The notes: generated from the letters alone by a model not told the origin. A DNA stretch of 41,385 bases from a virus (IMGVR_UViG_3300047548_000252:1-41385); one strand, 5' to 3'; shown: positions 3,802 through 36,664, counted from the stretch's first letter. Numbers and translations are program-made.

Positions 3802-5436
3802 TTATCTCATTGGGACTAAAGCGGTTAGGTTACGATTGGTAAGCTGTACATAAGCGTTTGCAGATCTGTACCAGCCGTTCCATTCGACAGTCACTGTGTT
3901 AGTACCGGCATTCATATTTACCAATCCTGAGAAGGATGGCGTATCCTGAACGGCACCCATACCTCGTTCAAAGGCTGCAACACCGTTGACCCTGATCCGG
4001 AAATACGTAGCGAGGTTGCCTAGGTAGTTAGGATCATTCACATCCCAACCATAGTATCCTTGCTGGAGAGCCATTAGCAGAAGCACTGGGGCTGCCTGAG
4101 GCAAGGTTACAGTCAAGCTTAGAACCTGCTGCACAGTGGTGAATGTTCCAGGAGCTGCTGTTCCGTTGAGGGCACTTGATGCAGTTGAGGAACGAACGAT
4201 CGAGACAGCCTCATCACCAATCTTCAAACGGGTGATCTGAGCGTCAGCAATCTTAGCAGTTGTAATGATACCCGAAGCAATCTGAGCCGAAGCTGTGATC
4301 AAGTTCGTGGTAGCAAGCTTGTCTGACGTGATAGCCTGAGCTGCAATCTGAGAGGCACCAATAGCACCCACAGCAATCTTACCGGCTGTGATTGAGTTGG
4401 CTGCAAGCTTGTCAGTCGTGATCGCATTGGTAGCGATCTTCTCGGCTGTCACCGCGTTGGCAACGATCTTCTCAGACGTGATAGAACCAGCAGCGAGCTG
4501 TCCGGTATTTACGGCACCAGCAGCAATCTGAGCTGCATTGATCGCACCAGCCTGGATCTTACCTGTGGTGATCGCATTGGCAGCAATCTGATCCGCACCA
4601 ATCTGACCCGTTAGGTCCGTAGCGTTGATGCTGGAGACGAACTGGGTACCGTTGTAGCGGTAAAGCTTGTCATCCGTTGTTAGAAAGACCAGACGACCTT
4701 CAATGTTTCCTGTGGTCGGTAGCGCATTCAGAATCTCAACAGGACGCAGACCCTGAGCAAACTTAGCGACAGTGATAGAGGCATCAGCCACTGTCTCAGC
4801 CGTACTCACGTTGACAACGACCTGAACCCAAGCACCGTTCACACGTTGATAGAGAAAGCCGTCAGTGGTCAAGAAGACAACCGTACCATCGATCGCATCG
4901 GTAGGAAGTGAACTTACAACCTGAACTGCATCAGGGGCGTCAGGAGTCAAAGACTCATTGACAGTCAACCACTGAGTACCGTCCCAGATGTAGAGGATAC
5001 CGTTGAGAAGAACCGTACGACCTACGAAGTTTCCTTCTGTAGGGAGAGATGCAACGATCTCGATGTAGGATCCCTCTGGAGGAGGATTCGTGGTACCACC
5101 TCCGGTGTCTCCACCGCCAGTGCCACCGCCTGTGTCTCCACCACCAGTGCCACCACCTGAAGATCCACCACCGGTTGAACTACCGGTTCCCGTGGCTGTG
5201 ATCGTCACTACGCCTTTGCCGTTGGATGGATTGATCGAGATACCGTTACCGGCAATCACTCGATTCACAAGACCGCCACCATCGGCAGCGTAGGCACCTA
5301 AGAGGATCTCTAGGGCTGTAACCCTGCTTCGAACTGCACTGAGGTCATCATTGACATCAACAAGCTCGTTGCTAACCGTCTGATCCAAAGTCTCTGTCTG
5401 AACAATCAGCTCATTCAATTGATTTTCAATAGTCAT
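3802..5436 (-). CDS. Accessory tail fibre-like protein with decapeptide repeats
   Basis: 544 aa. The order is: N-terminal helical heptad segment (1-45), a compact region to about 80, a Gly/Thr/Asp linker (84-115), three copies of a roughly 35-residue module (LP...G..V.L....LY..NG..W) near 125-160, 171-206 and 233-268, then about nine 10-residue repeats of the form AANAITTGKI at 285-374, and a beta-rich C-terminal domain (415-544). Repetitive stalks ending in a globular tip are typical of receptor-binding fibres. AAGGA precedes the ATG. It follows the tail assembly chaperone-like gene by 2 bases. Fibre identity is inferred from architecture. Confidence 0.8.
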   Translation of the reverse strand: MTIENQLNELIVQTETLDQTVSNELVDVNDDLSAVRSRVTALEILLGAYAADGGGLVNRVIAGNGISINPSNGKGVVTITATGTGSSTGGGSSGGGTGGGDTGGGTGGGDTGGGTTNPPPEGSYIEIVASLPTEGNFVGRTVLLNGILYIWDGTQWLTVNESLTPDAPDAVQVVSSLPTDAIDGTVVFLTTDGFLYQRVNGAWVQVVVNVSTAETVADASITVAKFAQGLRPVEILNALPTTGNIEGRLVFLTTDDKLYRYNGTQFVSSINATDLTGQIGADQIAANAITTGKIQAGAINAAQIAAGAVNTGQLAAGSITSEKIVANAVTAEKIATNAITTDKLAANSITAGKIAVGAIGASQIAAQAITSDKLATTNLITASAQIASGIITTAKIADAQITRLKIGDEAVSIVRSSTASSALNGTAAPGTFTTVQQVLSLTVTLPQAAPVLLLMALQQGYYGWDVNDPNYLGNLATYFRIRVNGVAAFERGMGAVQDTPSFSGLVNMNAGTNTVTVEWNGWYRSANAYVQLTNRNLTALVPMR

Positions 5437-5913: not shown

Positions 5914-6558
5914 TTAAGATGGGCCAACAGATGTCTGGAAGCCGTTCCATTGGTTATCCTCTGGGTTTGTAACAGTGATGTTTGAGGTTGCGCCTGCTGG
6001 TTGATCTAGTTTGTACCACAGGAATCCAGCTACGTTGTTACCATTTGTAGCATTTCCAGCCAGAAATGTGAATCCGGACGGAGTGGTTGCATTTCTGTTA
6101 TCACTGTTAGACCCAGCAAAAGCGAATTGAATACTTTTATTAGCTGGAATGGTGATCGAATTTAGGGTACCTGGATTAGCATAGGTTGCGACCGTGCCTA
6201 CAACACCGAAAGACGCTTTACGTAAGATCACCATAATAGCAATAGACTGACCACCACCTGCTCCGTTTGTATAAGCGACGGTATATGATGAGGCACTGAC
6301 GTCTGTTGAGGTGGCAATCTTAGAATACAAACCACAGCCACCACTAGTTACTTGTCGTGTCCAACCTGTCAGTGCACTCCAAGCTCCATTGGTGCCGTTA
6401 ATTCGACCGAAGATCAACATCAGATCTCCCACCTGAACGTTAGCAGCCTTGGTGACCACGATGTTTGTTGTAGAGGTTGTTCTCTGAGATACTGCTGACG
6501 AAACAATTTCAGGGCCGGTGGATAGACCACCAGCCGCTCTAAGGAATTGACCTAGCAT
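5914..6558 (-). CDS. Putative tail fibre/receptor-binding accessory protein
   Basis: 214 aa, rich in Thr, Ser, Gly and Asn and probably all-beta. The start chosen is the ATG that shares a base with the fibre stop codon (TAATG) and follows AGGTGG; an upstream in-frame extension overlaps the fibre gene and has an implausible Trp-rich composition. Similar beta proteins lie next to fibre genes in aquatic phages and often act as tips or adhesins. No specific domain name can be given. Confidence 0.75.
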   Translation of the reverse strand: MLGQFLRAAGGLSTGPEIVSSAVSQRTTSTTNIVVTKAANVQVGDLMLIFGRINGTNGAWSALTGWTRQVTSGGCGLYSKIATSTDVSASSYTVAYTNGAGGGQSIAIMVILRKASFGVVGTVATYANPGTLNSITIPANKSIQFAFAGSNSDNRNATTPSGFTFLAGNATNGNNVAGFLWYKLDQPAGATSNITVTNPEDNQWNGFQTSVGPS

Positions 6559-8336
6559 TATGCCACCTGTCCAACGAGAGCACCGTAGATAGTCGAACCA
6601 ACTTTCCACAATTGGATCACTGTATAACCACCACCAGGAACTAACGTTGGGGCAGAACCACCAACCCAAGTTACAGGAATGGAAGTCCAGTTCACTGTGA
6701 AAAGACTAGCCGTGTCGTTGACCATGAGGGTGATAGACTCACCAGCGTTCCATGAGTTCGCTACTGGGGTACTTGCTGCTGTAAGTGTCCAAGTCTGGAT
6801 TGTTCCGTTTGAAGGACTTAGGTCAGGAGTTGTACCAGTGACCGCAAAGATTTCTTCACGGATGTAACCATCCATCACCAAGTTTGTGATCGTCTTGTTG
6901 CTCAACGTCTGGACAGCCGTGGTTCCCACCAAGCTTCCTGAAGGAGGAGTTAGCCAGGTCGTCGCATAGTCAGTTCCAGAGGACTTGACGAGGATCGCAC
7001 CTGAAGCACCACCAGCGGCAACACCTGGACCAGCCGGTCCCGTGGCACCTGTGGCACCCGCTGGGCCTTGAACGCCCTGAATTCCCTGTGGTCCCTGTGG
7101 TCCGGTATCGCCTGTATCGCCCTTCGGACCCTGTGGTCCTGTGGCTCCGTCAACACCGTTTGTTCCGTTGGTTCCTGCTGGGCCTTGTGGTCCCTGCGGT
7201 CCCTGAATTCCCTGCGGTCCCTGTGGTCCAGGTTCGCCCTGTGGTCCCTGAGGGCCTGTGGCACCCGTGGCTCCTGCGGGACCCTGTACGTTACCAACGT
7301 CTTCCCATGAGGAACCCGTCCAAACGTAGAGATCACCAGCAATCAGATAGGCGTCACCAGTCGTACCAGAGGCTGGAAGCTCACCAGTGTTGGCAGCTTC
7401 ACCAAGGATGTTGAGACCAGCTCCAACCGGACCCGCTGGACCCTGTGGTCCCGTGTTGCCGGTATCGCCCTTATCGCCCTTGTCACCCTTCAAACCCTGC
7501 GGTCCCTGGGCACCGGCAGGACCCTGAGGTCCAACATCTCCAGTGTCACCCTTTGGACCCTGAGGTCCCTGTAAACCCTGAGCACCGGCAGGACCCTGTG
7601 GTCCCGTATTTCCGGTTTCACCTTGTGGTCCCTGTAGACCCTGTGGTCCGGTCAAACCCTGTGGTCCCTGTGGTCCCGCAACGCCTTGTGGGCCTTGCTG
7701 TCCAGGAGGTAGACCAAAAGTGAAAGCAATGTTTTCAGGATCGTAGGCAACCGTAGGAGACGCACCCGATGCAAGAACATCAATGCCAACTGTGAGATTC
7801 TCAGCGAAGTTCACAGTGGCATCTTTGGAAGCTAGAGCTGCTTCGGCTGCAAGTTGAGCTTGTTCAACGAATGTGCCTGCGAGATCCTTGAAGATCCCTG
7901 CTTGATCTTCTGCATCACGAGCATTCTCTCGGTGATCAAAAGCCAAGCGTTCATATTTAAAAGCTAGATCTGCATACTGACGTGCAAGATCTGTGTAGTC
8001 CTCAAAGTCTTCTACTAGCTCATCAGCTAGTTCGAATGCTTCTTGACTTAGAAAGAAAGCCTGTTGCGTTGCTCTGTCGAGATCAGCTTCGGTAAGCACT
8101 GAACCATCAACGAAGTCAACAATTCTGTCGTCTCGTTTAGTCTGACGGAAAATCCTGATTTCAGCTCCAAGTGCAGGAGCGGGATCGATGCGGAGTGTCG
8201 AAGCATTAGACCAAGAGGGAGTGACGAGATTTCCATCTACCTTGACCTTAACATCCTGCTCATCAATGTATGAGAAGGGGACGTTGAAGATCGAGTTAGA
8301 CCCAGTTCCTGTGTAAATAACGTAACTGTAAGCCAC
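6558..8336 (-). CDS. Tail fibre with T7 gp17-type N-terminus and collagen-like stalk
   Basis: 592 aa. Residues 1-90 match the T7 gp17 N-terminal tail-attachment domain ([19 protein letters not shown], then [13 protein letters not shown]). A helical, probably trimeric coiled coil follows (about 90-180). Collagen Gly-X-Y repeats span about 212-306 and 351-438, interrupted by a 45-residue module (307-350) with [19 protein letters not shown] beta-rich C-terminus ends the protein. The start is GTG at 8336 with GGAG nine bases upstream; no ATG fits. This is the main host-recognition fibre; the tip may be supplied by the next two genes. Confidence 0.92.
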
Positions 8337-8386: not shown

Positions 8387-11300
8387 TCATTCTTGCTTAT
8401 CGGTATTCGGATAATCCGCAGCAATCGAGTTTAATACGTTTGAGATACCTACAACGTTGTTCATTGGTAGGAGCTTCATCCAGTTCCTGACATCCTTCTC
8501 ACTCACCTGGACATCCTCAGAGGCAGACGCTAGGGCGAGCTTACGAGGCATCGCCAAGGCTGTGCTGATAGCCGAGAGAGTTGGGTTGGAGCCGATGAAG
8601 TCCGTCACGTTGGACGTGGTTCTGGCACCAGAGAAGATAGGCACAGGGGCAATCGTGGAATCAATCATCACTGGGAGTAGAGACACCTGAGCGATACGAC
8701 CAATCGAGTTGGCCACGATCTGCTTGTTGCTCAATCGCTTCTCAGCGAACTCCTGACGTTCAGCCTCTGACATACCCACCATCGAAGCGTTTGTACGAGC
8801 GATGTAGGTAGCAGCAGCGAACATTGAACCATGAAGAACCGTAGACAAGGTTTGATAGTCACGATGGTTCATAGCGAACATCATTGACTTATTCCAACCC
8901 TGCATCGAGAAGTTCATAAACTGGAACAAGGTTTGACCCCAGCCTTTACCCATGATCGGAACCATGGCTGCTAGGTCATTCTCTTGAACCACTCTTCGTG
9001 CTTCTCTTTGATACGCTACGATAAATTTAGCGTACGTCTCCGGGTCACTCGCTTGCCATTTCTCAAAGTCAACCTTGCCGATCTTTGAGCCAGCCTGTGG
9101 AGTGTGGTAGGTTTTGATTCCATCTAGTACCTTTTGAGTGTCAGTTTCATCTAAGCCCATCCATGCCAACCTCTCCTTGGAGAAGGCAAGCTTGGCTCTT
9201 CCTGTGGCTGAATCAACGAAGTGGTTGATCATGGCAATCGCGTGGATACGCTTCTGCTGGATCATTACCCCTGTCATGCCGGTGTACTTCAGAACGCCTG
9301 AGGCAGAGTTCGCCATCAGGTTATCAGCCCTATCGAGCCACTGGTTCAAAGGCGTGTCACCACGCTGTCTGACCCAATCGTCTCTTGGAGAGAAGTCCGT
9401 ACGACGGAGAAGATCGGATCCAGCTCCACCCGTGAGGTTCTCGAGCTGGTCGAGCATCTCATTGGCGACCTTTCCGGTCTTAGCGTCACGAACCATGACC
9501 TTCAGCTCAGGGATCGCCTTGAGGGTTGTCTTCCAACCCAAGGATCCGATGATCTGAGACAATTCCTGCACCTGGTTATAAACGGCACCACCCATGAGGC
9601 GGGTCACGTTCAAGGCTCTCCACATCTCTAGGAGTTTGTTGCCCGTTGAGAACTCCTCGACAGGACGACCTAGGATGCGATCGAAGGTGAAGTTGAGGTT
9701 CTCTCTGAGCTTACCCAATCGGTCTGTCGAGAGTGACGAACCAAACTGTTGTTCGGTGGCATTCTTGATCAGACGATCAATGTCGGCTGCCTTGTAGACA
9801 TCCAACTGGTTAGCTAGAGAGACCGTACCAGCGGTTCTCCTAAAGTAAGCCTCTAGGACATCGAAGGTGCGGGTATCAATGAAATCATTAAGAGTCATCA
9901 TGTGACGTGAACCGTCAGCCATGACAATCTCTTCAGTGTAAGTTTCATTCAATGAAGAACGTGATTTGAGGTTACGTGTGAGAGGGTTCGCCTTGTCTCG
10001 TTTAGGGAACATAACTGACAATAGCTCGTCAGCTTGGTTCTCAGTCATCAATCCATTACGGATGAATGATTCACGAAGGCTCTCTCTATCGGCACCCCTA
10101 AGCATGTTCTCAAGGTTGTCGTTCACTCGATTCAGCTTGGCATCCTGTAAGTTGTTGAAATACCACTTACCAAACCGTTGAGCTACGTTATCAGCAGCGT
10201 CTGGGTTAGCAGCCTTGAATACATTACCGAAGAACTTTTGGACAGTCTCAGCACCAAACTGAGCTGTCATTGAATTGAACTTAGCCACATCGGGATGACG
10301 TGGTAGGTAGTTATCGTTGTAGGGGAGGGGATCTGAGAGTGTCTTAACACCTAGCTCATCTACCTCTTCCACCTGTGTCAAGCCACGCTTCACACCACCA
10401 TTGAACTTAGCAGGATTGTTAATGTGATCCACCGCCTCCTTGAGGAGAGCACGTGTATCATTACCTACCTTAATCACGGATGGGTGATACTCAGCTTCAA
10501 CACCACGGATGTAGTTACCTACTTGACGTTCCCATGTGTCGAACACCTTAGCTCTGTCCCAACGGGTGGCTTCACCCTTTTCCATCAGCTCTTGGAAGTA
10601 CTGGTTGAACTGAGGTTTGAAGGACTTGTCGAGCTTGGTGATCCAGCCATCACCCAGGGCAAGGGTTTGATCCCAAGCTGACTGTGAGACGACTGCATGA
10701 TTCTTATAGCCAGTGGTTGACCCAGCGAGCTTCGCAAAGATATCACGAGCTTCCTGAGGTACCCACTCACGAGCGAAGAAGTTCTCTAGGCCTGGACCGT
10801 AGGATGTGAATCCAACCTTCTCACCAGCCTCTGGGAGATAGTCAGGGTCGTCCATGGAGAAACTCTTCTCACCACGACCGGCACCCTTATCGAGCTTCAC
10901 GTTGAGCTTCTCATCGATCAGACGATCGGAGACATCGAGGGCCTTGAGGAACAGGTTGGCTTCCTCGGCATCAAAACCAAGGAGCTTACGGAGGCTATCC
11001 ACGAACTCCGAGAGGAGCGAACCCTTCTCAGTCTTGATCTTGGACAGGAAGTCCACCATAGGCTTGGCAGCAGCACCACCATAGAGACCCGCAGCGAACT
11101 CACGGATATTCGAAAGATAATAGCTCTCGAATCCCTGCTTCTTAGCTTCAGCCAAGGCAGTCTCATAAAGAGAATTGAACTCTTGGTAGAGTTTACCGTG
11201 GGCTGTCTCTGGGTTTAGCTTACCGTACTCAAGCTTATGAACGGTCAAGGCATGGGCAATCTCATGGACTCTCGTGGTGTCCTTAGCTTCTTTCGAAACA

Positions 11301-12847
11301 AGGACTGAATGTGAATCGTGATAGTAGACCCCAGCTCGTCCCTTCAATGCCTTCGTACTCTTTGGTACGACATAGAAAGGAATGTCATCTGAGAGCTGTT
11401 CCAACAAACGACTGGCCAGCTTAGAGATAACCTCATCGGTATTCTTTGAGAGTTGCTCTAGGGCTTGCCTTGTTGAACCAGCTTGGTAGGGCTTACCACC
11501 TGAGTTAGTTGGTACAAAGTCAGTGTAAGCAGCAGTCCTCTCGTAGGTAGGGATGCTCTTGGCTTCCTGACGGATAGCCTCAATCTCAGCCTTAGCGACT
11601 TGCTCCTGACGGTATTGAGGATCGAGAGTCTTCCTACCCTTCTCAGTGAGGGTCAGGCCGGCCTCCTCGATCTCCTTGATGTTGAGCTTCGTGAGTTCCT
11701 TCTGACCGAACCTGGCGAGATCCGTGACCTCATCCGTGAAGGTCGAGGCAGCTCGTCCACCGGTTTTCGCCATGGCACCCATAGGGAGACCAAAGGCCAA
11801 TCCAGCAGCCGCAGCCCAGTAGAGATCATTCTCACTCGCCAGAGGCTTGTACTTAGCAAGGGCAGCCTCACCAGCCACGTTACCCCCAGCCATGGCCATG
11901 CCAGTGACAAGGGCGTTCTTGAGGCGGTTGGTCTTAGAGACGACCGTAGCTGTCCCTAGGCCAGGGATGAATCCCACTAGCGTAGGCAGATCCACGAGAG
12001 ACCCTGTGAGGGTACCAACGACACCCACAGCTCCCATCGCAGACAGCTCTTGTTGTTTCTTCAGGGACTCGTCCACACGAGCCTTACGACGATAGACATC
12101 CTCCTGAGAGACCCCACTAAGGATGTACCCGTGGTAGTCCTGAGGAACGCCTTCGGTTGCCTTCTGGACGATATCCTTGGTGTATCGGAAGTCCCGATCC
12201 ACCTGTTGCATGTTCTGATCCACCAAGAAGTTGTAGACTGAGTTCTGGGTTTGGAAACCGAGAGACACAGCTTCTGGTAGATTTCTAACTTGATTTACAA
12301 TGCCACCGTACTTTGCATCGTCCTGAGCTTCCTTGAAGGCCAGGTCAACGGCACTCACGGATGTCTGAGGAACGATAGAACCTTGAGTCTGGTTCTGGAG
12401 GCTAGGAGGGGCAGAGGCTACCGTAGGGGTAATCTGCCCACCGAAGAACTTGGAGACCCACTCATTGGATCTCTTTGGACCGGCATACTGGGAGCTGGGC
12501 ATGGAAGCCCAGGTTCCCCCGATCTTGCTGATGGCTGCCCCGAAGTTGCCGCTACGGACATCCTCAAGGGCACCATTTCGTCTGATCAATTCCAGAGCGA
12601 TACGATCCTGGCTTTGAGGAGAGAAGTCAGTAATGCCTAGCTTCGGTGCTACATCGTCATAAGTTGTTTTAGTGATTTGGTACTTACCGGCAGCAGTGCT
12701 GGGACCATGTTGCGTCACCATACCAACGATACCTGGGTGTTTATCGAATGAATTAAAACGACCACCACCAGTTATAACGTTGTAATCTGCACCCTCGGCT
12801 GCACCTAAGAAGTCTAAGAACTTCTTAACATTACTAACTTGATCCAT
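8387..12847 (-). CDS. Internal virion protein D-like (T7 gp16), transglycosylase plus HExxH segment
   Basis: 1486 aa (T7 gp16 is 1318 aa). It should be ejected to form part of the channel that carries DNA across the envelope. Residues about 10-125 closely resemble lambda endolysin R (GH104 transglycosylase): catalytic Glu in FLGAAEG at residue 18 (lambda E19), the STAAGKYQIT segment, and DFSPQSQD. This differs from the Slt70-like domain of T7 gp16. A second segment has HEIAH at 528-532 and a downstream Glu (NIREFAAG, E583), a gluzincin-like pattern. Hydrophobic stretches near 270-360 may enter the membrane. The ATG at 12847 shares a base with the upstream stop and has GGAG; a TTG three bases earlier is less likely. 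Confidence 0.9.
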   Translation of the reverse strand: MDQVSNVKKFLDFLGAAEGADYNVITGGGRFNSFDKHPGIVGMVTQHGPSTAAGKYQITKTTYDDVAPKLGITDFSPQSQDRIALELIRRNGALEDVRSGNFGAAISKIGGTWASMPSSQYAGPKRSNEWVSKFFGGQITPTVASAPPSLQNQTQGSIVPQTSVSAVDLAFKEAQDDAKYGGIVNQVRNLPEAVSLGFQTQNSVYNFLVDQNMQQVDRDFRYTKDIVQKATEGVPQDYHGYILSGVSQEDVYRRKARVDESLKKQQELSAMGAVGVVGTLTGSLVDLPTLVGFIPGLGTATVVSKTNRLKNALVTGMAMAGGNVAGEAALAKYKPLASENDLYWAAAAGLAFGLPMGAMAKTGGRAASTFTDEVTDLARFGQKELTKLNIKEIEEAGLTLTEKGRKTLDPQYRQEQVAKAEIEAIRQEAKSIPTYERTAAYTDFVPTNSGGKPYQAGSTRQALEQLSKNTDEVISKLASRLLEQLSDDIPFYVVPKSTKALKGRAGVYYHDSHSVLVSKEAKDTTRVHEIAHALTVHKLEYGKLNPETAHGKLYQEFNSLYETALAEAKKQGFESYYLSNIREFAAGLYGGAAAKPMVDFLSKIKTEKGSLLSEFVDSLRKLLGFDAEEANLFLKALDVSDRLIDEKLNVKLDKGAGRGEKSFSMDDPDYLPEAGEKVGFTSYGPGLENFFAREWVPQEARDIFAKLAGSTTGYKNHAVVSQSAWDQTLALGDGWITKLDKSFKPQFNQYFQELMEKGEATRWDRAKVFDTWERQVGNYIRGVEAEYHPSVIKVGNDTRALLKEAVDHINNPAKFNGGVKRGLTQVEEVDELGVKTLSDPLPYNDNYLPRHPDVAKFNSMTAQFGAETVQKFFGNVFKAANPDAADNVAQRFGKWYFNNLQDAKLNRVNDNLENMLRGADRESLRESFIRNGLMTENQADELLSVMFPKRDKANPLTRNLKSRSSLNETYTEEIVMADGSRHMMTLNDFIDTRTFDVLEAYFRRTAGTVSLANQLDVYKAADIDRLIKNATEQQFGSSLSTDRLGKLRENLNFTFDRILGRPVEEFSTGNKLLEMWRALNVTRLMGGAVYNQVQELSQIIGSLGWKTTLKAIPELKVMVRDAKTGKVANEMLDQLENLTGGAGSDLLRRTDFSPRDDWVRQRGDTPLNQWLDRADNLMANSASGVLKYTGMTGVMIQQKRIHAIAMINHFVDSATGRAKLAFSKERLAWMGLDETDTQKVLDGIKTYHTPQAGSKIGKVDFEKWQASDPETYAKFIVAYQREARRVVQENDLAAMVPIMGKGWGQTLFQFMNFSMQGWNKSMMFAMNHRDYQTLSTVLHGSMFAAATYIARTNASMVGMSEAERQEFAEKRLSNKQIVANSIGRIAQVSLLPVMIDSTIAPVPIFSGARTTSNVTDFIGSNPTLSAISTALAMPRKLALASASEDVQVSEKDVRNWMKLLPMNNVVGISNVLNSIAADYPNTDKQE

Positions 12848-14940
12848 CAATTACTCCGTTTACGTGTTCCCGCAGGACCAATCATAACAGCTCCACCTGG
12901 AGTCGTTACGGTTTCTGGACGGACAGGGTTCTGTCTACGATCCAGTTGCTTGTTTGCATCTGTAGCTTGGTTCTGAGCACGAATCTCAATCTGACCTTTG
13001 ATCCAGCTCTCGACTTCCGCTTGAGTGACGATGAGTGTTCCCACACCGTTCTCTGAAGGAAGAGGCATTGATCGATTAGACACCACGTACATGGGCTGAC
13101 CACCCTTGGTAGGGAGCAAAGTGAGATCTGAGAGAGATGGATCAATACCCATCTTGTTCAGACGAGGCATGAGAACCTCCTTCTGATACTTCTCAAACCA
13201 CTTAATCGAGTCTTCACCTTGAGGAGCCTTAGGCAGATCTGTGATCATGTACATGGTGTTGTTCACCTGTACCACAGTCTTACTCATATAGTCCGTAGCC
13301 ATCTTGACAGCAGTCTTGGCATCAGGAGCTACACGAGCTGCGAGATAAGTCTCAGCTAAATACTTTACGTTACTTTCGATAGGGATGATGTTCTTATCAC
13401 CCTCACCGAACTCACCACGGAATAGCTCACCCCAGAATCTACCAGAGAAAATGCCAGGATTCTTAACGTCCTCCACGGCTGAACTCACGGTCTTCTGGAT
13501 GTTACCCCATGTGGTTGGTTCATATTGTCTGCGGTTGATCTGATTGACCAATCCAGCAGCTTGATTCATATCAGGAATACCAGCTTCACGCAGGGCCTGG
13601 ATACGATTCAAGATCTTGTAATTCTCTTCACCAACGAGATCCTTGGCATATTGCTCATCCACTTGGCGAACCACAGCGAACTTGTTCAGAGCATCTTGGG
13701 TGCCCTTCAAGAGTGTTCCTGCTGGCTTACCATCGGCATTGATCGTTACCTCACCAATGTTGTAGACAGCCGTGTTGAACTCTTTCTTCCAACCCTCGTT
13801 GATCACACCATTGTTCTTGAAGAGACGCACCTGGTCACCGAAGTCCATATTTGGATTCGCAGCAACCTGACGTTCGACAGAGGCAGCCACGAGATCCTTG
13901 CCCTTGATGACCTTTTGGCCACCATCAGGGGTAGGGACTGTGACATCCTGCATGGCTCCACCGTTGCGCTGAGAGACCAGCTCGTCAGCTCTCTGGTTGG
14001 CACCATTGATGATCGTATCAGCCGTGGCTTGAACGGTCCGGACATTGGCCTCTCGGACCACCCTTTCGTACTCACGTTCAGCCGTGTTGCGGAGGACCAC
14101 AGAACGACCGGTAGCTTGACCATTACGGACATCAAGGAAGGCCTCGATCGATGGACCGTTGTTAGGAAGCTTAGTTCTCAAGAACTCTTCAACAAGAGCC
14201 TTGTTACCCGTAGCAGCTAACTTGAGGAGAGCATTATCCAGCACACCTCTAGCGTTATCATCGTTAATAACACGAGCGTTCCTAAGACGATCATACTTTC
14301 CAATGACATAGGCGACCCTCTCAGCATCGGATTTGCCGTTCCAAGACTCACCAGTAATCTCTGCAATAGAGTTGGAGACATCTTCAGTTGCAACCTGTAC
14401 GCCTTCAGTTTCATATCTCTTGGTCATCACGGTGTTCTGAGCACCAACTGCACGATCTCTAAAGGTTCCGAAGTTCCTATCAAAGCCAGCTACTTCATAG
14501 CGTGACTTACCAGAGAGCATGTCATTACGACGACCATAGATGAAATCATCTAGTTCCTTCTGGGTCTTGAACTCACCTGTGGCGATCTTGGATTCAACCT
14601 CACGGAAGAGAGCCTTAGAGGCATTCTCACCAGCCGTGTTCTGAACCGTTCCAACCCAGACAGGAGACTTCCAGGCAGGGAGTTCCCCTGCATCTATCTT
14701 CTTGCGTAGCTCGTCAGGAGACATGCTGTTAGCAAACTCCTGGGCTTCCAGACGCTCCCTTGCGAGGGACTTCTGGTACTCCCTATCGATGATCTGAGCT
14801 GGAGTGCTGAGTGCCTCTGCAAGCTGATACGCCTTGTCCCCTCTAGGATCGAACCTAGCCTGGACGGCTTGCAACTTTGGGGCAGCGACTGTTTGTAGTG
14901 CCTCAGCACGTACACCAGATTCTACCGGTACCCTTGCCAT
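12847..14940 (-). CDS. Internal virion protein C-like (T7 gp15)
   Basis: 697 aa (T7 gp15 is 747 aa). A mostly helical, charged protein without membrane segments. Its position between the gp14-like and gp16-like genes, its size and its start (MARVPVESGVRAEALQTV) fit the T7 gp15 family, which forms the periplasmic tunnel of the ejectosome with gp14 and gp16. AAGGAG precedes the ATG. Called mainly from synteny and size. Confidence 0.85.
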   Translation of the reverse strand: MARVPVESGVRAEALQTVAAPKLQAVQARFDPRGDKAYQLAEALSTPAQIIDREYQKSLARERLEAQEFANSMSPDELRKKIDAGELPAWKSPVWVGTVQNTAGENASKALFREVESKIATGEFKTQKELDDFIYGRRNDMLSGKSRYEVAGFDRNFGTFRDRAVGAQNTVMTKRYETEGVQVATEDVSNSIAEITGESWNGKSDAERVAYVIGKYDRLRNARVINDDNARGVLDNALLKLAATGNKALVEEFLRTKLPNNGPSIEAFLDVRNGQATGRSVVLRNTAEREYERVVREANVRTVQATADTIINGANQRADELVSQRNGGAMQDVTVPTPDGGQKVIKGKDLVAASVERQVAANPNMDFGDQVRLFKNNGVINEGWKKEFNTAVYNIGEVTINADGKPAGTLLKGTQDALNKFAVVRQVDEQYAKDLVGEENYKILNRIQALREAGIPDMNQAAGLVNQINRRQYEPTTWGNIQKTVSSAVEDVKNPGIFSGRFWGELFRGEFGEGDKNIIPIESNVKYLAETYLAARVAPDAKTAVKMATDYMSKTVVQVNNTMYMITDLPKAPQGEDSIKWFEKYQKEVLMPRLNKMGIDPSLSDLTLLPTKGGQPMYVVSNRSMPLPSENGVGTLIVTQAEVESWIKGQIEIRAQNQATDANKQLDRRQNPVRPETVTTPGGAVMIGPAGTRKRSN

Positions 14941-14949
14941 AAAATCTCC

Positions 14950-15486
14950 TTAAGTGTTTCCTCGAGTAACCCGAACGTCAGACGCTCTTGGGTTATTGTA
15001 ATCGTAAGCGGCGGTACCAATCTTCAAAGCAGCACCGAGATAATCGGGACCTTGAGGAGTCTTCAGACTGTTAATAGCTGAAGCAGTACCAGACCACATG
15101 TTCATCTTCTCCGCTTCGATCGCTCGATCACGACGGAGGTAATTCGTTTCAGCATTGGACACAGCTCGTCCACCAGCTCCACCTAGTTCCTGTAAGAGGG
15201 CATCTACGGATAATCCGGAGACACCAGCTTCACCGGCAGACACGGTTGCCTTGGCCTGATCAGCTTGAACCCTTGAGTTGATCTCAAGCTTCTTCTGAGC
15301 CAGGTTCTCAGCTTCCTGCTGCTTGGTCACATTGGCGTTCGCTAGGTTGTAGTTGTATGCCAACATCTGGCTATCATACGTCTGTTGATTAGCCTTGGTT
15401 TGAGCACGAGCTGCTTGGTCCTGCTGGTAAACAGTGGCTGCGGTTGATGCAATCGTTAGCACCGCAAGCGTAGTTGGTTCACACAT
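14950..15486 (-). CDS. Internal virion protein B-like (T7 gp14)
   Basis: 178 aa (T7 gp14 is 196 aa). It starts with a short hydrophobic segment (TTLAVLTIASTAATVY), followed by a long Gln/Ala-rich helical region, the usual gp14 pattern. In T7 gp14 inserts in the outer membrane during infection and seeds the ejection channel. AAGGTG precedes the start, which overlaps the gp13-like gene by 8 bases. Synteny is strong. Confidence 0.85.
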   Translation of the reverse strand: MCEPTTLAVLTIASTAATVYQQDQAARAQTKANQQTYDSQMLAYNYNLANANVTKQQEAENLAQKKLEINSRVQADQAKATVSAGEAGVSGLSVDALLQELGGAGGRAVSNAETNYLRRDRAIEAEKMNMWSGTASAINSLKTPQGPDYLGAALKIGTAAYDYNNPRASDVRVTRGNT

Positions 15487-15961
15487 ACTGTTTCACCTTA
15501 TGAAAATGTATAAATAATTCATTGTCAGGCCCGAGGGGTTCAGCTTCACCAAATTTGAAGCCTAGCCATTTCAGCCATGCAATATGTACTTTGTTCTTTG
15601 CCCACACGAAGTTCGTCAGCACTGGATAATCATCGTGCATCTTCTCAACGTAGGGCTTGCATTCCCTAAGGAACGTCTTTCCGATCTTCTTAATGTCATC
15701 CGTAGCGAGCATCCAAGGAACCCCAACGGATCCCTTGTTGCCCGATACCCCAAACATGGCTATAGGCTTTGTATTCCATTCAACCACATAGGGTTTATCG
15801 GATACCTTGTAGCCATCCATGAAGGCATCTACAGGGAGTTTATGGGCAATATGCCAGACTTCCCTGCGATCACAATCACGGATGTTTGCAGATAGAATTA
15901 GAACATCTACTAATTTTGCTTCACGTACGAAAGGCTTAGACGCCTCGACTTCTCTTGACAT
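15479..15961 (-). CDS. T7 gp13-like protein, acetyltransferase-like fold
   Basis: 160 aa. It has GNAT-like features (PIAMFGVSGNKGSVGVPWMLATDD, then KVHIAWLKWLGFKFGE), as in the T7 gp13/DUF2833 family needed for virion maturation of internal proteins. The ATG at 15961 is chosen because GGAAGGA lies 4 bases upstream; a start seven codons earlier lacks this. It overlaps the tail tubular B gene by 26 bases. Enzymatic activity is not demonstrated for this family. Confidence 0.8.
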   Translation of the reverse strand: MSREVEASKPFVREAKLVDVLILSANIRDCDRREVWHIAHKLPVDAFMDGYKVSDKPYVVEWNTKPIAMFGVSGNKGSVGVPWMLATDDIKKIGKTFLRECKPYVEKMHDDYPVLTNFVWAKNKVHIAWLKWLGFKFGEAEPLGPDNELFIHFHKVKQYV

Positions 15962-18335
15962 ACATTCCTTCCCAATCGGCACTCAATAATGAACACGGCA
16001 ATGGAGCATCAGAGTTCAGTTCGATGGTCACACGAGTGTTCTGAGCGAGAATCGGGAACTTCATATTACCGGTTGGTAGATTAGTCTCACCAATGGTTGA
16101 CGATAGATTGCCTAGGTTCTTACCTGTATAGACGTACGTGTAAGGTGATCTACCCTCAGGAGTCACAATCGCTTTGAAGTAGCCTGTATCAGCAAAGTTC
16201 ACTTGCATGGTTCTTAGCTGTAGGCGTCCAGTTGTATCAGACTTGATGGCCTGACCAGCCTGTTGCTTCATCGTGATGGGACTGAACTGGTATCTCATCG
16301 TGTACACACGACCTACCACCATGTCAGAGTCACCGTAGTTACCCTTGATACGAGCACCTGTTGAGGTGGACTCTAGGAGAACCCTAGTGCCAGCCTTCTT
16401 AGGTTGAAGCTCGGTGATCACCGCTTCCCACTTACCGGCTGCAATCGAGCCAGGAAGGTAGGCCACGGGGATGTGGGTGTAGGTACCATCGAATGTGGTC
16501 TGAGCTGCTGTGACCAGCTTCTTGCGATCGAGATGCACGATGTAGGGTTCAACCCCATCGGACACACTCGTGGATACCGAGAGAGACTCAAGGTACACAC
16601 CATCGGATCGCTGGATCACGAGCACCATTTCAGAGAGGATGAAATCCGCATTGAGGATCTTATCACCCGCATCGAAGGTCCACTTGGACCAGGCACTTTG
16701 AAGCTTTTCGTTGTTATTGAAATAGAACTTGTAAGCCCAGATGGAGTTTCTCTCGTGCTTAGAAAGCACTGCAAGGAAGTCATCGGTCAAACAAGCAGCA
16801 ATCTTGAAGGTTTGATGAGGGATGTATGAAGGCACGTGGCTTGTAACTTCCACTGAATCATTCACACCCGTCACTTCATCCACAGGGAAATACTCACGTA
16901 CTCCTGTGTAATCACCCTTCGTAACTGCGAAGTATGCGTTCTTACCAATGACAGCCGGTTTCACACCCACGTCAGCCTCAAACTCCGTGGCCACCTTGAT
17001 GGCGATCGTCTTAGGAGTGAGGAGATCCCCAGCTTCAACCACGAACTGGCTCTGAGCCGAGAACAGGAGGAGCTGACGGTTATACGGGATGGCATGTTGG
17101 AGAGTGGACACCTTCGTGTGACTCACGGTCACGTCGATAGGGTCAGAGTCCAAGAGCTGTGTCACGGTCGTCCGATAGAAATTGAAGAACTCTGAGGCTT
17201 CAGAGAAGATCACTGACTCATCCGCTAGGACACCCAGACGGTTACGATAGAAGAAGATATCCGTGATCTTACGACCGACGAATGAAGGATCCTCATTGCT
17301 ATCGAGAGTACCTACCGTTCTACCTGTCCAAGTGGCAGGAGCAAACGTGAAGGTGCCGTCAGAGTTTCTCACTAGGGTGTGAGGCATTGACTCATTGATG
17401 AACCCTAGGCGTGTGCCAGGCTTGATCGTCTCTTTCCAGGTACCCGTTCCAGTGGAATCGTACTCAACCCAGAAGTTGTCAAAGCCGTTGATATCATCTC
17501 CGATCACCTCGACAGCGAAACCATCCACACCAGCATTGGCAGGAAGCTCTTCGAAGCGTTGGATCTTCTCCTTGATGGCGAGCATCGCTCCATTGTTGAA
17601 GCCATCCTCGCAGCGGATCGTGAAGTCAGCAGAGGTCCTGGAGATGTAGATCACCGAACCAATCTGGGTCACGGTCCAGCCATTGGCAGACGTGATGCCA
17701 TTCTGGACGAGGCCACCATCGGTCAACCCAGTGACAGCGTTGAGAGATCCGTTGATCAACTTCTCAGCAATATGATCCGTTGAGATCAACTTTGAGTGCG
17801 TCGGTTGGGATCCGTCAGGGGTTGTGTAGGTAGCAACCACTACATCATTGAGAATGATCTCATAGTCCTTGCCATAGTTACCCGCCTTGACGTTCACAAT
17901 GGCTTCGTAGGGACGAGTAGGGGAGGTGGCTGAACCGACCAGCACGGTCTTCTCACGGTTCACCAGGAAGGTGTAATCCGCTACCGTGGTTGCCCTGAAG
18001 GCAGTGGAGGTGTTTGTGGCAGATAGGTAACTCTTCCCGTTTGGAAAGCTTACGGTCTTCTCATTACCAAGGAGGTCAAAGACCTTCAGATCCTCGTTGG
18101 CTACCACCACGACATAACGCTCGTTCTCGTCACGATTGATCGTGTGAATGAAGGCGTTCTCGTAGGAGCCTGTGAGAATCTTTTTGATGTGCTTGGTGGG
18201 AGGGCGTTTCCTCAGCCCCTGTGCAGTCGTGCTCAGGCCATTCTCTTGGAGTTCAGCCTGTGAAGCCAACCGAAGCGTGAAGGGCTGCTGAGAGACGCCA
18301 TTGACCAAGTTAGGAATGGACTGGGAAATCAGCAT
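15936..18335 (-). CDS. Tail tubular protein B (T7 gp12-like, nozzle)
   Basis: 799 aa, almost the same length as T7 gp12 (794 aa). It has the conserved N-terminal phrase IPNLVNGVSQQPFTLRLASQ of podophage tail tubular protein B and is beta-rich throughout. It forms the tail nozzle and binds fibres. The gene begins 3 bases after tail tubular A, as in T7 genes 11-12. Firm call. Confidence 0.95.
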   Translation of the reverse strand: MLISQSIPNLVNGVSQQPFTLRLASQAELQENGLSTTAQGLRKRPPTKHIKKILTGSYENAFIHTINRDENERYVVVVANEDLKVFDLLGNEKTVSFPNGKSYLSATNTSTAFRATTVADYTFLVNREKTVLVGSATSPTRPYEAIVNVKAGNYGKDYEIILNDVVVATYTTPDGSQPTHSKLISTDHIAEKLINGSLNAVTGLTDGGLVQNGITSANGWTVTQIGSVIYISRTSADFTIRCEDGFNNGAMLAIKEKIQRFEELPANAGVDGFAVEVIGDDINGFDNFWVEYDSTGTGTWKETIKPGTRLGFINESMPHTLVRNSDGTFTFAPATWTGRTVGTLDSNEDPSFVGRKITDIFFYRNRLGVLADESVIFSEASEFFNFYRTTVTQLLDSDPIDVTVSHTKVSTLQHAIPYNRQLLLFSAQSQFVVEAGDLLTPKTIAIKVATEFEADVGVKPAVIGKNAYFAVTKGDYTGVREYFPVDEVTGVNDSVEVTSHVPSYIPHQTFKIAACLTDDFLAVLSKHERNSIWAYKFYFNNNEKLQSAWSKWTFDAGDKILNADFILSEMVLVIQRSDGVYLESLSVSTSVSDGVEPYIVHLDRKKLVTAAQTTFDGTYTHIPVAYLPGSIAAGKWEAVITELQPKKAGTRVLLESTSTGARIKGNYGDSDMVVGRVYTMRYQFSPITMKQQAGQAIKSDTTGRLQLRTMQVNFADTGYFKAIVTPEGRSPYTYVYTGKNLGNLSSTIGETNLPTGNMKFPILAQNTRVTIELNSDAPLPCSLLSADWEGMYVKRSRGV

Positions 18336-23145: not shown

Positions 23146-25125
23146 TTATCGGATTGGACAGGCTCCACCCGCACATTCCTCACCCTGGATCTCCTCAAAG
23201 CTGTTCGCTTGGTCGATCTCTAGGGGTTGGATACGGGAGGCGTACTCGTCAAAAACTTCTTTAGAAACAACCTCTTGCGGTAGGTAGAGGTATCCTAGGT
23301 CCTTGGCTGTCTTGGTTGGATCAGCACGGAATAGGAAGCTCACCCCCACATACACGTCCCAATTGTCCATCAACCAGTCCACAATGCCTTCCACCTCATC
23401 CACGGAATAGCTGATCGTGGCTGAGACGTTCTGCTGGCACCAGGACTGCATGAGCATCTTGTAACGCTCAAGCTGGCTTACGGCTGACTCTAGGTTGACC
23501 TCCAGCTCCTTACCGTCACGAACCACCTTATCGAATGGGACATCATCCCAGCGGACAGGGAAGGTGATCAGAACGGATTCAGGATCGATAGGGTTGTCAA
23601 ACACACGGTAGCCAGAAGCACGGCACAAAGGTACAAGGGGATCATGTTTGGAGAAATTCACGTTATTAAACACGTACTTACCTAGTGGCTTATGAACACC
23701 TTCAGTGGTGTCCATAATCTTCGATAGTGTCCCACTCGGTTTGATTGTCGTGACGTTCTTTGGACGCGGTAGCCCAAGCTCGTCAGCCATTGAGTAAGCT
23801 CCCGAAGTAGCTGTTCTCTGCAACTCAGTATAGTCGTAACTACCCAAGTCTGGTCTTCGCACGATACCCGTAAGACCCACGCCGCATAACCGTAGGAACT
23901 CGTTGTTGAGATGCCAAGCTTCTTGGAGGATACCATCTCTGAGATCAACACAGGTCTGCCTGTAGTTAGCCCTGGCTGCAAGATGGACTGCCCTTCTGAG
24001 ACCGGAAGAATCGCCTTTAAATTTCCCAACATCTACCTCTGTAAGATTACAGAAACTCTTGTTGCCTAACAGAATCTCTGCACATGGATTTACACCCTTG
24101 AACCAAGGGGCACGTTTAACTGCCGTCTGACCATTGATAAAGCCAGGCTCTGAACCACCAGACTCAACCATCAAATGGAAGATGTGCTCAAGCTCGTGAC
24201 GCTGTGGCTTGGTCTTGAATAGGAGAGAGTTGTTGGATTGTGCTCTCTGGATGTTCGAAACCCACCAGTCCTTCTTGGCTACTGCGAACTCTTGCCACTC
24301 GTCTTCACCGAACGCGAAGAGGGCGATTTCCGCTGACCTACGGGACGAGAGGACGGTGCCGAGCCAGTTGACGATATCGAGGATGTCGATCCTGGTGAGG
24401 AGGCTTCCTGCCCTGCGGTTGAGGATCTTGAAGATCTCTTCGTACGCTTTGGCGATGGCTCCGTCACCTGAGGAGATCCAGCCGTAGCCTTTAAGTCGCT
24501 CCCCCGAAGGACGGATTTGAGAGAAGTCCAGGACCAGCTTATCGGCTGGGTAAGGGTGAGCCATAAGCTTACCAATAGATTTCGCCCACGCTTCAGCAGA
24601 GTCTCCGATTTGGATCGTCCAGGTACCATCTTCGTACGTTTCTTTGTTGTGTTCATTACCACCTTTCTCAGTTCGTGAACTGCGAATAACTTCTAAGTTC
24701 TTGATTGGCTTCTGAAAACCAGTCAATTGACCCACGATCGGGCTGAAGCCTACACCACATCCTTGCAATAGTAGCCATAGGACATCTACAACATCATAGA
24801 TGGATTCCACATGGGTGAAGCTACAGTTGAACTGGGAGGCTTCACGCTGTCTGGCCACGGATGTACCGCCTAGCCAAAGGGTGCGTCCGGATGTCAGAAC
24901 CTTACGGTCCATCATGAGCTGTCGTAGCTCACGGAGTTCCTCCAGGCCTTCATAGGGGATCTTGTTGTCTGAAGCTCGTTCCCACAGCCAGAGCTGGTGA
25001 GCAATCACACGGTCCACCGTGTCCTCCCAGGTCTCGAAGTTCTTTCCTGAGTCGTCGGTAGGTCTGTTGTAGGTTCGTCTCGTAATTAGTTGTGCCCGTA
25101 GGCTTGGGTTACCTGTCGTCGCCAT
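23146..25125 (-). CDS. Class II (adenosylcobalamin-dependent) ribonucleoside triphosphate reductase
   Basis: 659 aa from the ATG at 25125; the longer in-frame extension overlaps the MazG-like gene and is not conserved in type. Resembles monomeric RTPR of the Lactobacillus leichmannii type: active-site Cys in QFNCSFTHV, NPCAEILLGNKSFCNLTEV, and a C-terminal redox pair in CAGGACPIR. It makes dNTPs from NTPs using B12, without oxygen dependence or a second subunit. Common in aquatic phages. It closes the DNA metabolism block and is followed by a terminator. Confidence 0.93.
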   Translation of the reverse strand: MATTGNPSLRAQLITRRTYNRPTDDSGKNFETWEDTVDRVIAHQLWLWERASDNKIPYEGLEELRELRQLMMDRKVLTSGRTLWLGGTSVARQREASQFNCSFTHVESIYDVVDVLWLLLQGCGVGFSPIVGQLTGFQKPIKNLEVIRSSRTEKGGNEHNKETYEDGTWTIQIGDSAEAWAKSIGKLMAHPYPADKLVLDFSQIRPSGERLKGYGWISSGDGAIAKAYEEIFKILNRRAGSLLTRIDILDIVNWLGTVLSSRRSAEIALFAFGEDEWQEFAVAKKDWWVSNIQRAQSNNSLLFKTKPQRHELEHIFHLMVESGGSEPGFINGQTAVKRAPWFKGVNPCAEILLGNKSFCNLTEVDVGKFKGDSSGLRRAVHLAARANYRQTCVDLRDGILQEAWHLNNEFLRLCGVGLTGIVRRPDLGSYDYTELQRTATSGAYSMADELGLPRPKNVTTIKPSGTLSKIMDTTEGVHKPLGKYVFNNVNFSKHDPLVPLCRASGYRVFDNPIDPESVLITFPVRWDDVPFDKVVRDGKELEVNLESAVSQLERYKMLMQSWCQQNVSATISYSVDEVEGIVDWLMDNWDVYVGVSFLFRADPTKTAKDLGYLYLPQEVVSKEVFDEYASRIQPLEIDQANSFEEIQGEECAGGACPIR

Positions 25126-25423
25126 GTCCTGTAATTGTATTTCTAGCCATACGGCTCGTAAGTTTATGAATGTTTGCTTCAGCAATTTCTTCCAAGGAGA
25201 AGCCGTGATCCTGTCCAATCATGGCAATATGCCAGAGGACATCACCCAGTTCCTTCTTGAGGTTCTCTCGGTACTTATCGATGTTGGCACCATCCCTAAT
25301 CAGCTTGGCCTCAAGGGACAGAACCTCACCGACCTCAGCAGCCAGGTTGAGGAAGCAATAGAGATCCGAGGCTGACTTCAACCTCGTGACCCCGCATTTG
25401 AATTGGTACTCATCGAACGTCAT
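25109..25423 (-). CDS. MazG-like nucleotide pyrophosphohydrolase
   Basis: 104 aa. It shows the metal-binding pattern of MazG/all-alpha NTP-PPases: NLAAEVGEVLSLEAKLIRD followed by KKELGDVLWHIAMIG. Such enzymes hydrolyse NTPs or (p)ppGpp-like alarmones, or cleanse dNTP pools. The ATG at 25423 is preferred because GAGG lies 7 bases upstream; an earlier start adds five residues. It overlaps the DUF3310 and reductase genes, so the three are co-translated. Confidence 0.85.
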   Translation of the reverse strand: MTFDEYQFKCGVTRLKSASDLYCFLNLAAEVGEVLSLEAKLIRDGANIDKYRENLKKELGDVLWHIAMIGQDHGFSLEEIAEANIHKLTSRMARNTITGHGDDR

Positions 25424-25631
25424 CAAAGACCTCATCATAGTTCTCTATCAGATACTCAAGATAGTGAATGGCTTTCTCTAGGTCTTCACGACCATTCTTG
25501 TAGGGTGCTCTCAAAACGTACTTGACTACGTTGCCTCGCCAATAATCCAGCTTCCATGTGTTGATAATGTCCCATGGCTGGATAGCTTTGCGATAGTGAT
25601 CGCCACCTACTTGTTTACTCATTGTGTTCAT
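25410..25631 (-). CDS. DUF3310 protein
   Basis: 73 aa with the signature of DUF3310 (PF11753): VGGDHYRKAIQPWDII, then GNVVKYVLRAPYKNGREDLEKAIHYLEYL. The family is widespread in phages as a nucleotide-kinase-like or accessory protein, but its biochemical role is not established. GGGAG lies upstream of the first ATG; an alternative ATG three codons later would give the common MSKQ start. It overlaps both the exonuclease and the MazG-like genes. Confidence 0.88.
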   Translation of the reverse strand: MNTMSKQVGGDHYRKAIQPWDIINTWKLDYWRGNVVKYVLRAPYKNGREDLEKAIHYLEYLIENYDEVFDDVR

Positions 25632-26561: not shown

Positions 26562-26897
26562 TCATTCCTTATTTTTGATTGCAGAGAAGTACTTTAGCAA
26601 CGATGGATTATCTAGGAACACCTGGAACAAACCAGAGGCACTCCTGCGGACAATCGGTTCCTCTTCCATCGGACCACCATCAATCCCCATCTGGTGCCAT
26701 ACGGCATGGAGGATCTCATGGAGAACCGTGTCACCTTCCTCAACGGGAAGCTGATAATCCTGGATGGCAATGGTCAGCTTCTTATGATCGCATTGACCCA
26801 GGTTCTCGTGGTCGATTGAGCACTCATGTACGAAGTTAAATTCGTAGATCTTGCCCATGACCCTGACACTCTTGGGTCTTAGCTTTTTATAATTCAT
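26562..26897 (-). CDS. Putative small zinc metallopeptidase-like protein (HExxH)
   Basis: 111 aa. The segment DTVLHEILHAVWHQMGI holds a zinc-binding HExxH motif (HEILH) with acidic residues downstream (MEEEP) that could supply the third ligand. Comparable short HExxH proteins (SprT- or ImmA-like in shape) occur in aquatic T7-like phages; none with a proven substrate. Two further His/Cys residues (HECSIDHENLGQCDHKK) precede it. AAGG precedes the ATG; the gene overlaps its upstream neighbour by 4 bases. Confidence 0.75.
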   Translation of the reverse strand: MNYKKLRPKSVRVMGKIYEFNFVHECSIDHENLGQCDHKKLTIAIQDYQLPVEEGDTVLHEILHAVWHQMGIDGGPMEEEPIVRRSASGLFQVFLDNPSLLKYFSAIKNKE

Positions 26898-30978: not shown

Positions 30979-31428
30979 CTACATGTTCTTTGCCAGCCAT
31001 GCCTTCACGTCGAATGAAGGACAGGCTTTAGCCACTCCTGGGAAGTCACGGTGCCCCTGAATCTTTGCATCAGGGTACTGCAACTTCAACACAGTCAGGA
31101 GAGACTTCAGTGAGGTGAACTGCGCCTCAGTAAAATTGTTCTTGGCTTTCGTATGGTCATTGGCATCAACGCCTCCAACCATGCAGATGCCGATGGAGAA
31201 CTCATTGTGTCCTGCCACATGGGCACCGACCACCTGGACATCACGTCCATGTTCCACATCACCATTGCGTCGGATCACATAGTGATATCCGATACAAGCC
31301 CAACCATTCTTGCGGTGCCACTTGTCAATCTCGGCAGCACCAATATCCATCTTGTCGCCAGTCGCAGAACAATGTACCACAATGTAGTCTGTTCGGACTC
31401 GCTTCTTAGTATTAGAAGTATACGTCAT
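30979..31428 (-). CDS. N-acetylmuramoyl-L-alanine amidase (T7 lysozyme, gp3.5-like)
   Basis: 149 aa (T7 gp3.5 is 151 aa). Zinc ligands H19 (VVHCSAT), H126 (GHRDFPG) and C136 (KACPSFD), with catalytic Tyr 48 and Lys 134, match T7 lysozyme. It cuts the amide bond in peptidoglycan at lysis and, in T7, also binds and inhibits the phage RNA polymerase. AAGGA precedes the ATG. As in T7 it lies in the replication block, far from the holin. Confidence 0.95.
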   Translation of the reverse strand: MTYTSNTKKRVRTDYIVVHCSATGDKMDIGAAEIDKWHRKNGWACIGYHYVIRRNGDVEHGRDVQVVGAHVAGHNEFSIGICMVGGVDANDHTKAKNNFTEAQFTSLKSLLTVLKLQYPDAKIQGHRDFPGVAKACPSFDVKAWLAKNM

Positions 31429-35626: not shown

Positions 35627-36664
35627 TCACGCAGACCGGAGCACCGGAGCGTGTGAGTTCCTATACTGGTCCAAGGCATCCACGCCTTCGATCAACTTGC
35701 TAGGTGCGAGGTGCATGTAGCGAGCTGTCGTGATGGGAGTGGAGTGACCCATCCAGGCCTGAATGAACTGAGCCGTCTTGTCCTGCATGGCGAGACGAGA
35801 GGCACAGGTATGCCTGAGCATGTGAACCACGAACTGGGGATCGTCCTGCTTCCCAAGGTACGCTCTGACCTCCTCCCACTTGGTCCTGAGGCGAGAGGGA
35901 GTGAGATCCCCGAAGAGGATCTTGTTGTTCCTCCTCCGCTCCAGAATCTCCTGAACACGCTTGGTGGCAGGGACTGCCCTAGCCTTGTTCGTTTTGGTCT
36001 GGTCAGGGTGGAGATGCAGAAACCCACCACGGTACTGACTGACAGGGAAGTTCAGCAGCTCCATCCTGCGGAAGCCGGTGTCGATCGCACACACGATGTA
36101 GTCGTGTATGGGATGAAGCCCCATCTTCGTACAGGTGTTCAGAACCTCCATCTCCTCCTCAGCATCGAGCCACCGGATCCTGTGGTCACCGTTAGCCCTT
36201 CGCTTGATGCGTGGCATGGTTTCAATCCAGCCCTCATCAGCAGCCGTCTTGAGCATCATCGAGAGAGCCGAGAGCTTCCCGTTGATCGTTCCACCCGAGT
36301 CACCCTCTTCGAGAAACTCGCTGACCATCTCACGGATCACCGATGTGGTTATCTCCGTGACAGGGGTGTCCTTGCCGAGCGAATCAATCACCGGCTTGGA
36401 GGTGAATAGGTACGCTTTGGAGCGTTTTGTGCTCCAGATGTCCCTGACGGTGAGCTGGTAGGCCGCATAGAGGGTATGCAAATTTTGCTTACCCATGCGT
36501 ACCTCTGTGCGTGTATCCGGTAGGACATCTTCGTGTTTCCGGCAGAGTTCAAGAGTTTTCTCCTGTAAAACTGCCTCAGCGTAGGTCTTGACCGACTTTC
36601 TAACTCGATCTTTCCCACTGCCGACAGATACCATCCATGAGTTACCTCGTTTATAGATTGGCAT
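35627..36664 (-). CDS. int: Tyrosine recombinase / integrase
   Basis: 345 aa. An N-terminal arm-binding-like region and a core-binding helical domain (about 60-155) precede the catalytic domain. Catalytic residues: R199 in DTGFRRMELL, Lys near 224-227, H281 and R284 in HMLRHTCASR, H307 in WMGHS, and the nucleophile Y316 in TARYMHL. It should insert the phage at a tRNA-Leu gene; attP lies 107 bp downstream. GGAGAAG precedes the ATG, which overlaps the MarR-like gene by 14 bases, so the two are co-expressed. Confidence 0.95.
   Translation of the reverse strand: MPIYKRGNSWMVSVGSGKDRVRKSVKTYAEAVLQEKTLELCRKHEDVLPDTRTEVRMGKQNLHTLYAAYQLTVRDIWSTKRSKAYLFTSKPVIDSLGKDTPVTEITTSVIREMVSEFLEEGDSGGTINGKLSALSMMLKTAADEGWIETMPRIKRRANGDHRIRWLDAEEEMEVLNTCTKMGLHPIHDYIVCAIDTGFRRMELLNFPVSQYRGGFLHLHPDQTKTNKARAVPATKRVQEILERRRNNKILFGDLTPSRLRTKWEEVRAYLGKQDDPQFVVHMLRHTCASRLAMQDKTAQFIQAWMGHSTPITTARYMHLAPSKLIEGVDALDQYRNSHAPVLRSA

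Follow-up and report, generated by a model that had tools for sequence, protein, structure and literature searches.

A gp16-class phage ejection protein with a lambda-R-type wall-cutting module and a predicted zincin-like domain

Which activities does a phage carry into its host on an ejection protein that combines a cell wall-cutting module with an HExxH motif? We addressed this question with the viral contig IMGVR_UViG_3300047548_000252, whose full 41,385 nucleotides are referred to here as the window. Positions 8387–12847 hold a minus-strand frame of 1486 amino acids, with its ATG at 12847 and its stop codon ending at 8387. An initial annotation had placed an ejection protein with a lambda-R-type transglycosylase and an embedded HExxH segment at exactly these coordinates, and its residue numbers were likewise exact throughout, i.e., E18 in AAEG, STAAGKYQIT, DFSPQSQD, HEIAH at 528–532 and Glu583. 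We conclude that the product is quite probably a gp16-class ejection protein with a GH104 module and a zincin that would cut protein after ejection.

Residues 134–1485 matched PHROG_342 (internal virion protein with endolysin domain) at E = 3.1e-141. When a family profile was compared with solved structures, the C-terminal hub matched T7 gp16 in 7eyb and 6yt5 (T7 gp16 E = 2e-6) and also 23sg. Hub identity was 46–82% in most of the family and 35–40% in three deep members. The closest named relatives were those of Bordetella phage BB8 (full-length identity 48%) and Limnohabitans phage YIMV22061, and relatives of the ejection protein were found encoded at 24, later 46, IMG/VR loci, many of them common to both sets. 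On these matches we assign the protein to the gp16-class (tetrameric) ejection proteins of T7-supergroup phages; by analogy with its PhiM1 and T7 homologues, it is presumably packaged in the virion and ejected. It resembles T7 gp16 (internal virion protein D) in its position in the ejection cluster, its N-terminal wall-cutting module and its conserved C-terminal hub. In T7 gp16, however, the module is SLT and no zincin is present, whereas the window protein combines GH104 with a zincin.

The middle domain and its HExxH...E site

An HExxH motif alone is weak evidence of a metal site, because 1.3% of shuffled copies of the window protein contained one somewhere and T7 gp16 holds an unrelated HERLH. 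Conservation was assessed with 48 sequences covering the region, 35 after removal of near copies, at a median pairwise identity of 31% and a minimum of 17%. H528, E529, H532 and E583 were kept in all 48 homologues. Among the 35 non-redundant sequences, these four positions and G624 were the only invariant columns (5 of 236 tested). The site is convincing because it is invariant across very diverged sequences, and the five columns are the signature expected of a predicted gluzincin-type metal site, in line with what the initial annotation had proposed for HEIAH and the downstream Glu583. Outside the closest relatives, divergence in the domain outpaces that in the hub, with about 19–47% versus 35–50% identity to the window protein.

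The AlphaFold2 model of the domain had predicted local distance difference test (pLDDT) values of about 90 over most of residues 455–625 and comprised three strands and two helices, a long one that carries HEIAH and another with E583. Structural matches were ranked by the Z-scores from VIA-align 2 realignment of Foldseek candidates. The best solved match was the PhiM1 ejection protein (8vb2_A; Z 11.7, root-mean-square deviation (rmsd) 2.6 Å over 142 residues), followed by lethal-factor-type zincins (Z about 6.2), PPEP endopeptidases (Z 4–5) and IrrE-type proteins (Z about 3.3). A family profile of the domain matched 9sfn_G, the solved structure of an internal virion protein (5.7e-17), and PhiM1 gp48, i.e., 8vb2_A (9e-10); a phmmer search of the PDB with the window domain alone found no relative, and only the family profile detected them. 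Moreover, hhalign reported homology to the zincins of N4-type virion RNA polymerases (vRNAPs) with a probability of 96.5%, and in a set of 24 proteins the domain profile matched the vRNAPs of Vibrio phage phi 1 (E = 6e-18) and N4 (E = 6e-5).

Several points weigh against an active zincin. Foldseek alone gave no match in the PDB under E = 0.1, and the matches to non-phage zincins are middling (Z 4–6.3, rmsd 4–6 Å) and amount to support, not proof. No Pfam peptidase model scored above its cut-off, with SprT-like, ATLF and Tox-MPTase4 as sub-threshold matches only, and the model of residues 1–700 had a low overall confidence (pLDDT 59). The zinc site itself is predicted, and proteolysis, its timing and its substrate are inferred. 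With moderate fold support, we read residues 455–645 as a zincin-like domain with a predicted gluzincin-type metal site; in the model, the surroundings of HEIAH take up the fold that the initial annotation had anticipated.

In the same set of 24 proteins, the zincin profile matched phiKMV gp37 (6e-22), the ejection proteins of LIMElight (9e-16), Paku (Okabevirinae) and Axy21 (Krylovirinae), those of several Pseudomonas and Providencia phages, and those of BB8 and YIMV22061. No match was obtained in this set for T7, MmP1, SP6, P-SSP7, one Pelagibacter phage and one Mesorhizobium phage. As judged by profile, the domain is spread over phiKMV-, LIMElight-, Okabevirinae- and BB8-type phages. The window encodes a second small HExxH protein of 111 amino acids (HEILHAVWHQMG) in its DNA-metabolism region (26562–26897, minus strand), which hit no Pfam family and matched phrog_1233, a group of unknown function, at E = 2e-18.

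The N-terminal module and its exchange

Residues 9–134 matched lambda lysozyme 1am7 with E = 2.7e-17 as a single sequence and 2.2e-21 as a family profile. In the predicted structure of residues 1–700, residues 1–137 superimposed on lambda lysozyme 3d3d_A (Z 13.2, rmsd 2.6 Å over 119 residues). The STxAGxYQ and DFSPxSQD motifs are common to the window module and lambda R (public-record sequence). E18 is invariant in the alignment of six module sequences and lambda R, where it falls on E19, the established catalytic residue of lambda R. No Pfam match was found for the window protein at E ≤ 1, whereas 9 of 15 aligned family members matched SLT (PF01464) at the N-terminus. The proposed lambda-R-type N-terminus thus held up, with a GH104 fold in place of an Slt70 domain, and residues 1–135 are predicted to be a muralytic GH104-type transglycosylase.

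The module shares 36% identity and the motifs around the catalytic Glu with lambda endolysin R, yet it lacks a ten-residue loop that follows the catalytic Glu directly in lambda R. Lambda R works in lysis as a free enzyme, in contrast to the virion module found here; the GH104 module is not the lysis endolysin of this phage, because a separate amidase gene is present (Table 1).

Ten relatives, the window protein included, carry the GH104 module, and most others carry SLT. In a 42-row tree built from the C-terminal part, four changes of the module label are required, at least three of them forced by well-supported branches. GH104 and SLT thus replaced one another three or more times, and the zincin was retained; since the deep branches are long, the direction is not fixed. 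This bears out the earlier suggestion of a swapped wall-cutting domain. Swapping of such domains between gp15 and gp16 homologues has already been reported in a review (PMC8954989). The ejection proteins of Axy21, Drael01 and VAC_51 are shorter and start without a recognisable wall-cutting module, and in phiKMV and PhiM1 the lysozyme motif is carried by the neighbouring gp15-class protein. Because the wall-cutting module is swapped, absent or located on the neighbour, the zincin is the more constant element within the zincin-bearing phages.

Possible roles of the middle domain

We propose that the GH104 transglycosylase, with Glu18, cuts peptidoglycan glycan strands locally during ejection and would so take over the job of the SLT module in T7 and most sister phages. 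His528 and His532 of HEIAH together with Glu583 would hold a zinc ion, and Glu529 would activate water. The zincin would ride intact in the capsid and most likely cut protein after ejection. Its target may be the ejectosome itself, which would be processed or cleared after DNA passage in the way put forward for polyvalent proteins, or else a protein of the host envelope or cytoplasm; we weigh the two about equally. Hydropathy was used to seek clear transmembrane segments that would place the zincin relative to the inner membrane; the signal was borderline and we claim no topology.

The kind of domain is already known, as it is homologous to the N4-type vRNAP metallopeptidase, an HExxH zincin that likewise resides in an ejected virion protein but is fused to an RNA polymerase instead of a gp16-class hub. 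Iyer et al. 2017 described zincin-like metallopeptidase domains in injected 'polyvalent' proteins, including the N4 virion RNA polymerase and often accompanied by lysozyme domains; the authors connected them with zincins of the lethal-factor type and suggested a role in auto-processing (PMC5512222). For gp16-class ejection proteins, no paper turned up in a search of the open-access literature that combined metallopeptidase, gp16 and internal virion protein, although absence there is no proof, and a review of ejection proteins mentions no peptidase (PMC8954989). The zincin in this class hence seems to be unrecorded in the open-access literature searched. Many relatives are annotated as 'internal virion protein with endolysin domain'. 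Internal protein D of Bordetella phage vB_BbrP_BB8 is a homologue that shares the GH104 module and the zincin (HEISH...E), differing in that it is 65 residues longer; in the BB8 paper (PMC7073063) the words internal, lysozyme, protease and transglycosylase are absent, and neither domain appears to be discussed. Pectobacterium phage PhiM1 gp48 (PDB 8VB2) and phiKMV gp37 share the homologous zincin with its HExxH and downstream Glu; in contrast to the window protein, no GH104 module was found in them.

In the PhiM1 paper, gp48 region 268–528 is labelled endolysin/exotransglycosidase-like from BLASTP and DALI (PMC11440229), which, together with the 'endolysin domain' annotation of so many relatives, would make the middle domain a second peptidoglycan-cutting unit. 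Its structural matches, however, are zincins and not glycosidases, and its invariant residues are H-E-H-E, so that we regard a second glycan-cutting domain as very improbable; a peptide-cutting role in the wall may be conceivable. Unlikely too, if less so, is a metal-binding domain without peptidase activity, for example an α-ketoglutarate HExxH oxygenase or a purely structural zinc site. A weak match to an α-ketoglutarate-dependent HExxH domain (8s5f_E, Z 3.8) points that way, as does the occurrence of HExxH in radical-SAM-linked enzymes described in an N4 vRNAP preprint (PMC12633501). That Z-score, however, is at background and below those of the peptidases, and the invariant Glu529 would be needless in a purely structural site.

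Among protease functions, auto-processing alone, i.e., cleavage of the ejection protein or its gp15 partner after entry with no host target, is quite possible, though we give it less than an even chance. It was proposed for polyvalent metallopeptidases with reference to a processed P1 DdrB form in the head (PMC5512222), and the linker at about 380–455 is long, variable and poorly ordered. The pre-infection PhiM1 ejectosome 8vb2, on the other hand, contains a chain (1103 residues modelled) that includes the zincin domain together with the hub; because the mature virion keeps both in one chain, no processing precedes ejection in PhiM1, and the T7 and SP6 ejectosomes function without the domain. 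We give similar weight, again short of even, to an injected effector that would cut a host protein of the envelope or cytoplasm early in infection. Retention of the domain where the wall-cutting module is swapped or absent agrees with this, and faster divergence than the hub around a fixed active site is expected for a changing target, but it would also fit relaxed surface constraint; moreover, no neighbouring gene points to a host target.

Genome context and implications

The window is a T7-supergroup genome with a single-subunit RNA polymerase (by sequence), terminase, separate amidase endolysin and integrase. The gene order in the ejection cluster is phrog_457, 308, 805 and 23202 followed by the gp16-class gene, i.e., it comes after genes for a tail tubular protein and for three smaller internal virion proteins, which fits gp16-class membership after tail tubular and gp14/gp15-type genes. 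The ATG of the gp16-class gene overlaps the stop codon of the ejection gene that lies upstream (TGATG). Scanning the entire protein with Pfam and PADLOC yielded nothing of use.

Table 1. Coordinates of the ejection protein, its predicted parts and related genes in the window.
Feature	Position	Strand	Basis
Coding sequence, gp16-class ejection protein (internal virion protein D), 1486 aa	8387..12847	-	PHROG_342 match
Predicted lambda-R-type (GH104) lytic transglycosylase module, residues 1–135	12443..12847	-	1am7 match, profile, fold
Codon of E18, aligned with E19 of lambda R	12794..12796	-	alignment
Mostly helical linker, residues 140–445, hydrophobic stretch about 273–303, then variable low-confidence linker	11513..12430	-	hydropathy; model of residues 1–700
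Predicted zincin-like metallopeptidase domain, residues 455–645	10913..11485	-	AlphaFold2 model, structural and profile matches
HEIAH, residues 528–532, two predicted zinc ligands and predicted catalytic Glu529	11252..11266	-	invariance; helix 523–544
Codon of Glu583, predicted third zinc ligand, NxxEF motif	11099..11101	-	invariance; helix 581–586
Conserved C-terminal hub region of gp16-class proteins, residues 690–1486	8390..10780	-	identity and profile matches
gp15-class ejection protein, 697 aa, upstream	12847..14940	-	phrog_23202, internal virion protein, E = 1.8e-99
Two smaller internal virion proteins	14950..15982	-	phrog_805, E = 1.4e-27; phrog_308, E = 7.9e-45
Separate lysis amidase	30979..31428	-	phrog_822 amidase, E = 2e-67

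Some homologous loci are interrupted or unusually placed. In one IMG/VR contig (L005:1-1982) the ejection gene lies in two frames with a break near window residue 901, which may reflect faulty sequencing or a genuine split. In Pelagibacter phage HTVC309P (L075:2961-7307) the C-terminal-like region of the ejection protein covers two annotated genes (gp37, gp38). A further homologue (L073) was located on an 851-kb Pseudomonas putida HAI-2 contig, suggestive of a temperate member of the group that has integrated. In the window, a tyrosine integrase (phrog_1) adjoins a MarR/IclR-like regulator (phrog_9665) at 35627–36983 (minus strand) in this T7-type phage; its relative BB8 has been described as strictly lytic, with an integrase that is a relic.

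Elsewhere on the minus strand, a ribonucleotide reductase (phrog_367, E = 2e-170) stands beside a MazG-like pyrophosphatase at 23146–25438 of this T7-type genome, and an endonuclease VII/HNH-like gene at 1820–2302 adjoins the large terminase gene. The tail fibre genes at 6558–8336 and 3802–5436 (both minus strand) contain collagen-like GPQG repeats and repeated AITTGKIQAGAI-type units.

Within this family, the wall-cutting module is exchangeable and the protease-like site is not, and the 'endolysin-like' label of the domain in the PhiM1 structure is corrected. It is conceivable, though on balance doubtful, that a metalloprotease enters the host with the gp16-class ejectosomes of many phages (phiKMV, LIMElight, Okabevirinae, BB8 and relatives) and cleaves a host protein within minutes of the onset of infection, that it does so independently of the exchangeable wall-cutting module, and that the endolysin annotation caused this function to be missed. 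The three-residue site makes roles of ejection proteins beyond channel formation concretely testable. Should it be active, short-tailed phages over a broad range, the model phage phiKMV included, would deliver a zinc protease together with their DNA.

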